Of a stretch of 64,000 nucleotides of DNA, positions 26,236 to 31,839 are shown one piece after another (the stretch's first letter is position 1; each line of letters starts with the position of its first letter). A model generated the notes under the pieces. It saw only the letters and a list, made by a program, of their open reading frames with translations. It searched no databases and was not told the DNA's origin. Made by a program: the position numbers and the translations under genes. This DNA comes from Bradyrhizobium canariense (GTDB taxonomy: Bacteria; Pseudomonadota; Alphaproteobacteria; Rhizobiales; Xanthobacteraceae): the NCBI RefSeq assembly GCF_019402665.1, contig NZ_VSST01000013.1:1-64000 (forward strand), given 5' to 3'.

Positions 26236-26958
26236 CTACGCCGTGTTGCCCGCGTCGACCGTGAACACGCTACCCGTCACGTTGCGCCCGCCCTCGCCCA
26301 GCAGATATTCCACCATGCGCGCGACGTCGTCGGTCTCCGGCAGGCGCCGCAGCGCGCTGCGGCCGGCGATGCGCTTTCGGCTATCGTCGGAGAGATTGTG
26401 CGTCAGCTCGGTGTCGATGAAACCGGGCGCGATCGCGTTCACGGTGATGCCGAGCTTGCCGACCTCGCGCGCAAGCGAACGGGTGAAGCCGGTAGCGGCG
26501 GCCTTGGTCGCACCGTAAACGGAGAGGCCGTTATAGCCGGTGGTCGCGATGATCGACGAGATGTTGATGATGCGGCCGGCACCGTCGGCCATCATCTGCC
26601 GTGCGACATATTTGGTGAGAATGATCGGTGACAGCACGTTGAGCTGCACCAGCGCCTCGATCTCGGAATTGTGCATGGTCGCGAGCAGGCCTTCGGTGCC
26701 GAGGCCGGCATTGTTGACGAGGCCGTAGATCGGGCCGAATTCATCGCGCACGAGTTTTGCGAAAGCGGGAATCGCGTCGATCACGGCGAGGTCGCAGGCG
26801 CGGAAATGCAGGCGCCCCTCCGACCCGGCAATCGCCGCCTTGAGCGCGTCGCTCTCGCGCCGCGCCGCCGCGATCACGTTGTAGCCGCCATCAACAAGCC
26901 GCTGGCCGATTGCAAGGCCGATGCCGCGGCTACCACCCGTGACGAGAACATTATGCAT
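26236..26958 (-). CDS. Short-chain dehydrogenase/reductase (FabG-like)
   Basis: A 240-residue NAD(P)-dependent reductase: cofactor loop TGGSRGIG at 7-14, NNAG near 88-91, catalytic Ser in INISSI and the YxxxK pair in VYGATKAA. Proline-containing IAPGFIDTEL after it is typical of FabG-type enzymes. It overlaps the AMP ligase gene by 8 bp and forms the last gene of a carrier protein - ligase - reductase cassette. A 3-oxoacyl-carrier-protein or related thioester is therefore the likely substrate. That is inference from context. Confidence 0.88.
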   Translation of the reverse strand: MHNVLVTGGSRGIGLAIGQRLVDGGYNVIAAARRESDALKAAIAGSEGRLHFRACDLAVIDAIPAFAKLVRDEFGPIYGLVNNAGLGTEGLLATMHNSEIEALVQLNVLSPIILTKYVARQMMADGAGRIINISSIIATTGYNGLSVYGATKAAATGFTRSLAREVGKLGITVNAIAPGFIDTELTHNLSDDSRKRIAGRSALRRLPETDDVARMVEYLLGEGGRNVTGSVFTVDAGNTA

Positions 26959-28333
26959 CGGTGCGCGCCAGTTTGCCGGCCGGGGTGACGTCGAGCGCCT
27001 CGACGAAGCGGATCACCGCCGGCACCTTGTGGGACGCGAGCTGCGCGCGGCACTGATCCAGGATCTGGTCGCGGATCTCTTTCGCGCGCGCCGTATCGGT
27101 ACCGTCGGCGAGGATCGCGTCGGCGACGACGATGCCGCCGGTGATCGGGCTCTTGCGTGACTTCGCCCGCGACATCCGTACGTCGGGATGACGGTTGATC
27201 ACCGCCTCGATCTCTTCGGGGTGAACCTTCAGCCCACCGATATTGATGATGCCGCCGCGGCGGCCGACGAAATAGTAGCGGTCGCCGCGCAATTCGACGA
27301 TATCGCCGCTATCGACATACCCGTCCGCATCGGTGAGCGCGGCCGCGTCGCGGCCGATATAGGCGTGCGCTGTGCGGGTCGAACGGATGCGTAGCGAGCC
27401 GTCGACGACCTTCATTTCGACGCCGTTGCGGTTGCCGAGATAGTCCGCCGGAAAGCCTTCCAGCCCGTCATTGACGGCAAAGCCGACGCCGGCCTCGGTT
27501 GATGCATAGGCATGGCCGACGGAGGAATTCGGGAACGCCGCCTTCAGGCCGTCCAGCACCGCCTGGTCGGCGATCTCGCCGGAGAGGCGGACATAGCGCG
27601 GCGCGAACTGCGCGGCCGAGCCGCTCATCAACAATTTGCGCCAGTGCGAGGGCGTGCCGGAGATATGGGAGACGCCGCGCGCGTTCAGCCGCGTGACGTG
27701 ATCGCCGAGCGCCTCATGCGGATCGGACAGCACCATCGAGCCGCCCGAGAGGACGGCGCGGAGGAATATCTGCAGGCCGCCATAGCGGCGGATGTCGTAG
27801 AACGTCGCCCATATTGGCGCGGGTCCGCGCGCCGGGCCTTCGGCGACGATGGCGCCGGTGAGTGCTTCCAGCGTATGGCCGACGATTTTCGGCACGCCCG
27901 ACGTGCCCGAAGTGAGCATCAGCCACTCCGTGGCACATTCGGTCCTGGCCGGCGCAGTGGCTTGAAGCGGCAGTTGTGCGGTGACGACCAGCGGCACGCC
28001 GGTCTCGGCCCAGCGATCGGGCTCGTCGGTGACGACGGCATCGATCCCGGCATCCGCCATCAGCGCATCGAGATGCGCGGGGTTGAGATCGGGCGGGCAT
28101 AGCAGCATGCGGCGGGCAATACCGTCGAGCTCGATCATGGCAAGACCCGATCGGAGCTGGTCGGACAATTTCAGCAGCACGGCGCGGCCGGACAGCTCGC
28201 CCAGGCGGCCAGCCAGGACCGTCTGCGACAGGATATCCGTCAGCGACACGACATCCTGCGCGTCCGACAGCGTGCGTCCGGTCAGCTCCGCGCCAAGATG
28301 GTCGCGGAGCGCAAAGATCTCACGCGGGGACAT
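26951..28333 (-). CDS. AMP-dependent acyl ligase, carrier-protein associated
   Basis: A 460-residue ANL-superfamily adenylating enzyme, shorter than typical acyl-CoA synthetases. Core motifs are intact: P-loop LTSGTSGVPK, YASTEAG, DSGD followed by GGIINIGGLKVHPEEIE, and the C-terminal TPAGKLART with the catalytic Lys. It overlaps the upstream carrier protein gene by 14 bp and the downstream reductase by 8 bp, so the three are coupled. The simplest role is loading an acid onto that carrier protein. The acid is unknown, and no ketosynthase or thioesterase is nearby. Confidence 0.85.
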   Translation of the reverse strand: MSPREIFALRDHLGAELTGRTLSDAQDVVSLTDILSQTVLAGRLGELSGRAVLLKLSDQLRSGLAMIELDGIARRMLLCPPDLNPAHLDALMADAGIDAVVTDEPDRWAETGVPLVVTAQLPLQATAPARTECATEWLMLTSGTSGVPKIVGHTLEALTGAIVAEGPARGPAPIWATFYDIRRYGGLQIFLRAVLSGGSMVLSDPHEALGDHVTRLNARGVSHISGTPSHWRKLLMSGSAAQFAPRYVRLSGEIADQAVLDGLKAAFPNSSVGHAYASTEAGVGFAVNDGLEGFPADYLGNRNGVEMKVVDGSLRIRSTRTAHAYIGRDAAALTDADGYVDSGDIVELRGDRYYFVGRRGGIINIGGLKVHPEEIEAVINRHPDVRMSRAKSRKSPITGGIVVADAILADGTDTARAKEIRDQILDQCRAQLASHKVPAVIRFVEALDVTPAGKLARTDA

Positions 28334-28565
28334 TTTCGTAGGCCCGCACGAAATCGCCCACGGTGGCAGGGAACGCTGCGTCCTCGGAAATGGTGAAAGG
28401 GTCGACGCCGGTCTCGTCCTCGAGGCGCGCCACCAGGATGGCGAAGGCGAGCGAGTCGAAGCCCGTCTCGTGCAGGGACAGATCGTCCGAGAGTGCGGGA
28501 AGCGCGACGTGCTGTTCCTTGGCGATCTGCTGGATCGCTTCGATGACCTTAGACCGTACCGACAT
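28320..28565 (-). CDS. Acyl carrier protein
   Basis: An 81-residue carrier protein. The phosphopantetheine serine is in TGFDSLAFAIL (Ser about 38), and the four-helix pattern and acidity fit, though the usual DSL is followed by AFA rather than DTV, so it is not the fatty-acid-synthesis AcpP. It heads a tightly overlapping cassette with an AMP ligase and a reductase. A gene-free stretch of 141 bp, AT-rich around 28630-28690, precedes it and likely carries the promoter. Confidence 0.88.
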   Translation of the reverse strand: MSVRSKVIEAIQQIAKEQHVALPALSDDLSLHETGFDSLAFAILVARLEDETGVDPFTISEDAAFPATVGDFVRAYENVPA

Positions 28566-30521: not shown

Positions 30522-30696
30522 TCTTTCGGAACGTGTCTGCTGGTTCCGAGAGCTTAGCTCGCACGCCCTGCCCAGGTGTTAAGAGACAAGGTAAAACCGG
30601 GTTAGTGCGCGATTAACTCTAGTCATCCTTTACCAAACCGGTGGGATGGGCGTGCGCAGCCACAGCCTTTGCAGTATCTCATCGTGCGTGGAAGCT

Positions 30697-30837
30697 TCCC
30701 CTCTCGCCTTGTTGGAGAGGGTGGCTCGCCGCATAGCGGCGAGACGGGTGAGGGGGCACTCTCCGCGAGTTCACGTGCGGAGAGTGACCCCTCATCCGGC
30801 GCTTCGCGCCACCTTCTCCCACAACAAGGGGAGAAGG
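30697..30837. repeat. REP-like inverted repeat
   Basis: Left end CCCCTCTCGCCTTG, right end CAAGGGGAGAAGG, with inner paired blocks GGCTCGCCGC/GCGGCGAG and CCCCTCATCCGGCGC. Same family as 4372-4525 and 49757-49890. It occupies most of the 330 bp between the acyl-CoA synthetase and the divergent TTT gene. The rest of that interval shows no gene. Confidence 0.75.
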
Positions 30838-30849
30838 AAGAAGAGCGGG

Positions 30850-31839
30850 ATGCATGCATTGATCAACAAGCGACATTTCCTTCAGGCTGCAGCCTCTGCC
30901 GCAACCGTGCTCGCCACGCCACGCGCCTTTGCGATCGGCAATCCCTCCTATCCCTCGCGCAGCGTGAAATGGGTGGTACCCTATGCGCCGGGTGGGGCCA
31001 CCGACGTGCTGTCGCGGCTGCTCTGCCAGCGCCTCTCCGACCGGCTCGGCCAGACCTTCGTCGTCGAGAACAAGCCCGGCGCCGGCAGCAATATCGGGAC
31101 ACAGGCGGTGATTACGTCCGCCCCCGATGGTCACACCCTGCTGTTGACCTCGACCGCCAACGCCATCAACGCCTCGTTCGACCCGGCGCTGCCGTATGAT
31201 TTCGCCAAGGGCATCGCGCCGGTCGCCGGCGTCGCGCGAATTCCGCTGGTGCTGGTCGTCAACAACGACCTGCCGGTGAACAGCGTCGCCGACTTCATCG
31301 CCTACGCCAAGACCAATCCCGGCAAGATGTCGATTGCCTCTTCCGGCATCGGCACCTCGCTGCATCTCTCCGGCGAGCTGTTCAAGTCGCTGGCCGGCGT
31401 GCAGTTCATCCACGTGCCCTATCGCGGCTCGGCTCCCGGATTGACCGACGTGATGAGCGGCCAGATTCAGGGCATGTTCGACAACGTCACTTCATCCTTC
31501 GAGCTCGTGCGCGCCGGCAAGCTGCGCGCACTCGGCGTCACCACGCGCGAGCGTTCGGAGATTTTGCCGGACGCGCCGCCGATCGCGGACACGCTCAGCG
31601 GCTACGAGACGAGTTCATTCTACGGTGTCGGCGCTCCACACGACACGCCGCGCGAGATCATCGACCTGCTCAATCGCGAAATCGACGCCGCGCTGTCCGA
31701 TGCGGAGATCAAGTCCCGCATCGCCGGGCTCGGCGCGATCCCGCTGCACGGCAATGCCAGCGAATTCGGCGGCATGCTGACGGCGGAGACCGACCGTTGG
31801 CGCAAGGTGGTGGAGCTGTCAGGCATCCGGAAGCAATAG
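30850..31839 (+). CDS. TTT family (Bug) substrate-binding protein
   Basis: A 329-residue periplasmic receptor of the tripartite tricarboxylate type. A Tat-like or Sec signal (about 1-28, KRHFLQAAASAATVLA) leads into PSRSVKWVVPYAPGGATD, the family opening, then VENKPGAGSNIG and IHVPYRGSAPGLTDVMSGQI. Bug receptors bind small organic acids or amides. No TctA/TctB membrane genes are adjacent, as usual for this large family in Bradyrhizobium. The ATG at 30850 follows GGAAGAAGAG. Upstream codons belong to the repeat. Confidence 0.88.
   Translation: MHALINKRHFLQAAASAATVLATPRAFAIGNPSYPSRSVKWVVPYAPGGATDVLSRLLCQRLSDRLGQTFVVENKPGAGSNIGTQAVITSAPDGHTLLLTSTANAINASFDPALPYDFAKGIAPVAGVARIPLVLVVNNDLPVNSVADFIAYAKTNPGKMSIASSGIGTSLHLSGELFKSLAGVQFIHVPYRGSAPGLTDVMSGQIQGMFDNVTSSFELVRAGKLRALGVTTRERSEILPDAPPIADTLSGYETSSFYGVGAPHDTPREIIDLLNREIDAALSDAEIKSRIAGLGAIPLHGNASEFGGMLTAETDRWRKVVELSGIRKQ

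Follow-up and report, generated by a model that had tools for sequence, protein, structure and literature searches.

An acyl carrier protein, ligase and reductase gene trio in Bradyrhizobium resembles the mupirocin priming cassette and is co-inherited with an amino acid:carrier protein ligase

The 64,000-nucleotide stretch of Bradyrhizobium canariense DNA analysed here (contig NZ_VSST01000013.1, hereafter the window) carries three overlapping genes, referred to below as the trio, for a stand-alone acyl carrier protein (ACP), an AMP-forming ligase and a short-chain dehydrogenase/reductase (SDR). Comparison with relatives favours, as the likelier reading, a cassette that makes a hydroxyacyl-ACP and is akin to the priming cassette of mupirocin and thiomarinol. 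The trio is also inherited together with two genes encoded elsewhere in the genome, one for a protein of about 290 residues (P0005) and one for an amino acid:carrier protein ligase (aa:CP ligase), and we suggest that the trio and this glycine-loading enzyme probably build one small molecule.

In the order of transcription, the gene for a FATP-type acyl-CoA synthetase is followed on the minus strand by those for the carrier (P0003; positions 28320–28565, 81 residues, Pfam PP-binding), the ligase (P0002; 26951–28333, 460 residues, AMP-binding and AMP-binding_C) and the SDR (P0001; 26236–26958, 240 residues, adh_short). Overlaps of 14 bp (carrier and ligase) and 8 bp (ligase and SDR) connect the three genes. 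Coordinates and Pfam matches confirm the overlapping genes beside a FATP-type synthetase that a sequence-only reading of this DNA had described, and the three-gene set is real. We take the ligase to be the loader of the carrier and the MupS/FabG-like SDR to be the reductase of the carrier-bound group. An alignment across distant trios showed Ser38 in the DSL motif of the carrier, together with its DPF motif, to be invariant in 13 of 13 carriers, Lys454 in 12 of 12 ligases, and the Asn107-Ser135-Tyr148-Lys152 tetrad in 11 of 11 SDRs. Arg33 of the SDR is likewise invariant (11 of 11), and an arginine at such a position favours NADPH. Neither ligase nor SDR reached the cut-off of any NCBIfam family among the 25 listed for it. 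With the SDR scoring 197.5 bits against the housekeeping FabG profile TIGR01830 (cut-off 297.75) and the ligase 64.9 bits against the exosortase-A associated ligase profile TIGR03098 (cut-off 592.35), both of these identities were rejected. A structure model of the ligase, at a predicted local distance difference test (pLDDT) score of 52.5, was too poor for a fold search, and a promoter and terminator scan gave nothing above shuffled sequence. No ketosynthase was recognised near the trio, with Pfam applied to six window proteins and the other open reading frames judged by eye.

Named relatives, to which the ligase is 77–97% identical, mark the window as Bradyrhizobium DNA. Of 174 ligase relatives in genome contigs, the best 80, all of them Bradyrhizobium-like, have the carrier and SDR genes adjoining the ligase gene in every locus (80/80), so the arrangement is not due to chance. 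The exact overlaps of 14 and 8 bp recur in 99 of 116 loci, a partly redundant set that includes loci of genus g28. Gene calls in unannotated loci come from an open reading frame caller, with unlabelled genes judged by eye, and the labels 'Rhodopseudomonas-like' (g28) and 'Azospirillum type' are guesses for part of the genomes. Co-occurrence of the three genes had been proposed as a check on the sequence-only reading, and in the loci read the trio stood together, with no relatives in which the genes were unlinked. A strong ligase match (E below 1e-130) is found in 24 of 198 genomes of the family, spread over four genera. One record titled Frankia sp. RB7 (L028) holds a ligase 94% identical to that of the window, in Bradyrhizobium gene order, and is probably mislabelled.

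The best match of the SDR in the PDB is MupS (4yxf, E 1e-50) and that of the carrier, a weak one, is MacpD (6tg5, E 2.9e-4). The ligase matches the TmlQ-type ligase of pTML1, which we take to be the thiomarinol plasmid, at E 1.5e-27, compared with 2e-7 for FadD, 1e-6 for an exosortase-type ligase and 1.0 for FATP. On pTML1, from Pseudoalteromonas sp. SANK 73390, the ligase, SDR and carrier genes stand in a row with a polyketide synthase after them. In a tree of 30 ligases, the five of TmlQ type and the 20 from trios each form a clade (99/98 and 100/99), and the two join at 98/95 against five long-branched outgroups, flagged as unsure by the program. The DPF motif also occurs in the carriers of pTML1, Bradyrhizobium japonicum USDA 123 and Burkholderia, and is absent from P0008, the carrier of the aa:CP ligase.

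The trio thus shares with the mupirocin and thiomarinol cassette the same three enzyme types in separate, adjacent genes, the best PDB matches of its carrier and SDR, and a homologous ligase in a sister clade. It differs in gene order (ACP-ligase-SDR in the window, ligase-SDR-ACP on pTML1), in having its ligase in a clade of its own, and in being coupled to P0005 and often to the aa:CP ligase. A polyketide synthase follows the cassettes of pTML1 and USDA 123, whereas no polyketide synthase or ketosynthase was recognised, with unlabelled genes judged by eye, at the window trio or in the three compact clusters described below. As an ACP-ligase-SDR cassette the trio is a variation on a known kind of set, and the sequence-only statement that no described system has just this set does not stand, since macpD-mupQ-mupS and their pTML1 equivalents are that set. 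According to earlier work cited in PMC10098928, MupQ, MupS and MacpD make the 3-hydroxypropionate starter (3-hydroxypropionyl-ACP) from malonyl-CoA, and the same paper has the thiomarinol chain start from a 4-hydroxybutanoyl unit. Because the related mupirocin set makes 3-hydroxypropionyl-ACP, a short hydroxyacyl-ACP is a likelier product of the trio than a long-chain one. Homology to the mupirocin set, as portrayed there, is also what supports the earlier suggestion that an acid is captured on the free carrier and reduced on it. The USDA 123 cassette is itself a mupirocin-type ligase-SDR-ACP row directly before a type I polyketide synthase on plasmid pUSDA123-1 (L168:4688-12714), and matches of the same identity lie on four other Bradyrhizobium plasmids.

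At the level of the genus, presence lists for 195 genomes, compared by hand, contain the ligase in 129, P0005 in 128 and the aa:CP ligase in 126. Ligase and P0005 agree in 192 of the 195 (both in 127, neither in 65; ligase only in G669 and G700, P0005 only in G602), and for ligase and aa:CP ligase the figure is 188 (both in 124, neither in 64), the remainder being five genomes with the ligase and no aa:CP ligase (G581, G627, G669, G741 and G747) and two with the reverse (G590, 50%, and G602). In G602 shortened pieces of the aa:CP ligase and P0005 remain, and the stretch read contains no trio; G700 retains a fragment of P0005. Joint decay would give such remnants. In eight Bradyrhizobium genomes, picked for having both genes on one contig, the ligase and aa:CP ligase genes lie 0.43–1.4 Mb apart, so linkage does not explain their co-inheritance there; about 20 of the 195 genomes have a second, linked set.

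The pattern extends beyond the genus. In 35 genomes of four genera of the family (g1, g28, g3 and g43), with P0005 searched by its first 130 residues, ligase and P0005 were both strong in 24 and both not strong in 11; the ligase of G095 (g43) is remote (E 3e-49), and other genera of the family gave weaker P0005-like matches only (best G045, E 2e-27). A close aa:CP ligase is present in 22 of the 24 genomes with a strong ligase, being absent from G114 and G115 (88% complete), and in G068 (66% complete), which has no strong ligase. Other genomes hold aa:CP ligase relatives of 46–49%, with DUF1839 directly behind in two of three loci read. Among 385 genomes of the class, seven have a strong ligase (E below 1e-130), and P0005 is found in six of these seven, lying no further than 0.9 kb from the ligase match in each of the four strong-ligase genomes outside Bradyrhizobium; the aa:CP ligase occurs in G337 and, on another contig, in G267.

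The aa:CP ligase module of the window's genome lies on another contig, where P0008 and the row P0007-P0006-P0005 are on opposite strands, and only 37 bp separate P0006 from P0005. P0006 is an aa:CP ligase orthologous to Bll0957 (NF005479, 485.5 bits against a cut-off of 357; PDB E 3.9e-213), which we take to prefer glycine, P0008 is the ortholog of the solved aminoacyl carrier protein 1 (4h2s, E 6.2e-46), and P0007 is an acyl-CoA-dehydrogenase-like protein that accompanies the aa:CP ligase. P0006 and P0008 thus match the solved Bll0957 and aminoacyl carrier protein 1 of Bradyrhizobium and are co-inherited with the trio. Unlike the trio ligase, a Bll0957-type enzyme is derived from aminoacyl-tRNA synthetases (aaRS) and not of the ANL type, and it has a separate carrier, encoded elsewhere. 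Enzymes of the aa:CP ligase family are reported to attach an amino acid to a carrier protein. A 2022 review lists glycine among the residues of the aa:CP ligase family in a table and calls the role of these ligases unknown (PMC9437257).

In g28 genomes, part of the g3 loci and G337, the trio, FATP, P0005, P0006, P0007, P0008 and MetZ/MetA-like genes form one neighbourhood. Three compact Bradyrhizobium clusters (L159, L161 and L162), chosen from the matches like the other regions read for second copies or exceptions, place ACP2-FATP-ACP-ligase-SDR divergently from acyl-CoA dehydrogenase (ACAD)-aa:CP ligase-MetZ-MetA-P0005-branched-chain aminotransferase (BCAT). These clusters include MetZ, MetA, BCAT and thiamine diphosphate (ThDP) genes as possible members of the pathway, although MetZ and MetA may simply be methionine genes that travel with the rest. 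L162 has just a fragment of P0005, and in L159 the SDR was called as two pieces. According to PMC10888616, the genes raised in a B. diazoefficiens phaR mutant, 45 induced genes by its text, include bll0957, bll0958 (acd), bll1105 (metZ) and bll7459 (branched-chain aminotransferase). These represent four gene types of the compact cluster, bll1105 and bll7459 being likened by type alone.

Operons of the form ACP-ACAD-aa:CP ligase-DUF1839 without a trio were seen at L123, L130, L151 and L152. DUF1839 is described in PMC10318531 as papain-like and a suggested glycan processor, and P0005 could stand in for it as the transferase; a kinship of DUF1839 with P0005 was rejected for want of meaningful similarity. 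A PDB chain named 'Carrier protein, GNAT family transferase' (8zt4) matches P0008 at E 1e-4 and may be an earlier example of a carrier and a GNAT enzyme acting together.

P0005 and the aa:CP ligase module lie outside the window, and hence were absent from the sequence-only reading. P0005 adjoins the aa:CP ligase in the window's own genome and the trio in some Bradyrhizobium, in g28 and g3 and in another four alphaproteobacterial genomes; at four Bradyrhizobium loci (L160, L163, L164 and L166) P0005 and FATP stand beside the trio without an aa:CP ligase. RefSeq names one P0005 relative a GNAT and another an acyl-CoA acyltransferase, and the best GNAT-family match among ten relatives has an E value of 0.013. 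A profile of the family gave chance-level matches only against the PDB (best E 0.43), and a structure model of one relative (pLDDT 38.7) was too poor for a fold search. Polysaccharide loci from Shinella, from Methylocystis and from a record labelled Roseateles contain 38–44% relatives of P0005. At the Shinella locus L129 a remote relative is followed immediately by an ACP and a ligase of the exosortase-A type (TIGR03098), a set that is like the window's in having a P0005 relative next to an ACP and an AMP ligase, and unlike it in the kind of ligase, in a pyridoxal phosphate decarboxylase in place of the SDR, and in its polysaccharide setting. On plasmid pT136b of Rhizobium sp. T136 (L172:7052-14675), a carrier-like protein (by eye), a P0005 relative, an SDR and a TmlQ-type ligase are encoded in a row, with the P0005 relative directly before the SDR and ligase, and the row continues with a gene annotated as CmlS halogenase, an alpha/beta hydrolase and a GNAT gene; this is apparently an undescribed small biosynthetic cluster. 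A role for P0005 as a transferase using acyl-ACP would, we infer, fit its various gene contexts.

In the pathway that we propose, the ligase would adenylate either a short acid or a short acyl-CoA, for example malonyl-CoA, at its free carboxylate; it would load this substrate onto the carrier, and the SDR would reduce the carrier-bound group with NADPH to give a hydroxyacyl-ACP. No ketosynthase step would intervene, and the hydroxyacyl-ACP would feed one pathway with P0005 that in most relatives would also include P0006, its carrier P0008 and P0007. P0005 would most likely form an amide bond between the groups on the two carriers, or else transfer one of these groups to an amine acceptor. The substrate, the direction of the reaction, the role of P0005 and the product are all matters that we infer. 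Loading of the carrier by the ligase is highly probable, as is a place for P0005 in the same pathway; reduction on the carrier is likely, and so, in Bradyrhizobium, is a place for the aa:CP ligase in that pathway, while amide joining by P0005 is possible at somewhat under an even chance. One pathway with two free carriers, in which a short hydroxyacyl and an aminoacyl group are joined and neither a ketosynthase nor a condensation domain is recognised, is put forward tentatively, not far short of an even bet, from comparison of sequences and gene distributions. The most specific form of the idea is a miniature assembly line of a new kind, in which two stand-alone carriers would be charged by unrelated adenylating enzymes, one by an ANL ligase that works with a MupS-like reductase and the other by an aaRS-derived aa:CP ligase that works with a flavin dehydrogenase. 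An undescribed GNAT-like protein would do the joining, with neither a ketosynthase nor a condensation domain, and the genes, though scattered around the chromosome of many Bradyrhizobium, would be inherited as a unit; we consider this form rather unlikely to hold in full. No paper linking the trio genes with Bll0957 and P0005 was found in the open-licence literature, and earlier remarks elsewhere are possible.

Several observations weigh against this proposal. The carrier's resemblance to MacpD is slight, and the SDR tree does not separate MupS, FabG and the trio SDRs. P0005 has no Pfam, NCBIfam or PDB sequence match and is no GNAT at curated cut-offs, and no trio genes were detected near its 38–44% relatives in the polysaccharide loci. 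The Fisher probabilities for co-occurrence (3e-48 for ligase and P0005, 9e-43 for ligase and aa:CP ligase) are uncorrected for shared ancestry. A trio without P0005 is present in G515, trios without an aa:CP ligase in G114, G115, G384, G443 and G515, and conversely an aa:CP ligase without a trio, with DUF1839 behind it, in Azospirillum and Rhizobium.

The main rival explanation is glycan decoration, in which the trio would make an acyl-ACP donor and P0005 would decorate an amino sugar or other glycan (lipopolysaccharide, exopolysaccharide or flagellin), the aa:CP ligase serving a second, separate decoration that is loosely connected. Azospirillum-type trios stand beside pseI, glycosyltransferase and flagellin genes, and Rhodobacterales trios have glycosyltransferases and hexapeptide acyltransferases as neighbours; the glycosylation islands of Aeromonas contain the same types of gene, likened by type alone, according to PMC7874193, and both the polysaccharide loci of P0005 relatives and the glycan role suggested for DUF1839 (PMC10318531) point the same way. 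The Azospirillum-type flagellin/pseudaminate islands do resemble the window in having ACP-ligase-SDR in a row with a homologous ligase and SDR, but they have a shorter ligase, a ketoacyl-ACP synthase III after the SDR, an additional small protein as well as an alpha/beta hydrolase ahead of the ACP, and a glycan setting, with no P0005 or aa:CP ligase in the six loci tabulated. Against it, neither the surroundings of the window trio nor the compact Bradyrhizobium clusters showed a recognisable glycan gene, and the aa:CP ligase and the trio are present or absent together in 188 of 195 genomes. We regard this explanation as doubtful, if well worth weighing. Far less probable is a catabolic acyl-CoA ligase with a FabG-like dehydrogenase and the carrier as a bystander. 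The best NCBIfam matches of the ligase do include MenE and acyl-CoA synthetases, with all 25 shown far under their cut-offs, whereas the 14-bp overlap of carrier and ligase genes that are kept together, the invariant Ser38 and the partners' place in carrier-protein chemistry argue against it.

A further alternative turns on the FATP-type acyl-CoA synthetase (P0004; 28707–30521, minus strand, 604 residues, Pfam AMP-binding), a frequent neighbour that scores 777.9 bits against NF006134 (cut-off 625) and whose gene lies 141 bp upstream of the carrier gene. FATP is near the trio in 78 of the 80 Bradyrhizobium-like loci, the exceptions being L079, where the contig stops within FATP, and L080, whose flank lacks it, and it is also near the trio in g28, g3, G267, G337 and G443 loci; in the compact clusters the FATP-ACP gap is 34–71 bp on one strand. 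Such linkage, over several genera, would suit an N-acyl or hydroxyacyl lipid made by FATP, trio and P0005, with FATP providing the long chain and the trio the hydroxyacyl unit. Trios at L080, L144 and L145 lack FATP, however, the characterised relatives of the trio are reported to use short (C3/C4) units (PMC10098928), and given that MetZ adjoins FATP in several lineages the linkage to the trio may be partly incidental; we regard a lipid product as improbable, and on the first two grounds we also downgraded the long-chain acids that the sequence-only reading had drawn from the FATP neighbour. Divergent from FATP is a gene for a TctC-type binding protein (30646–31839), of which a homologue is near the trio in 39 of the 80 Bradyrhizobium-like loci at the threshold used and at four of seven other Bradyrhizobium copies; this gene could encode a partner that binds the acid, or could be no more than a neighbour.

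If the miniature assembly line is true, it would be the first pathway for the orphan aa:CP ligases. The mupirocin cassette provides a characterised template for a gene set that is widespread in rhizobia, the P0005 family is pointed to as the likely joining enzyme, and the joint inheritance with Bll0957 opens a practical way to find out what the aa:CP ligases do.

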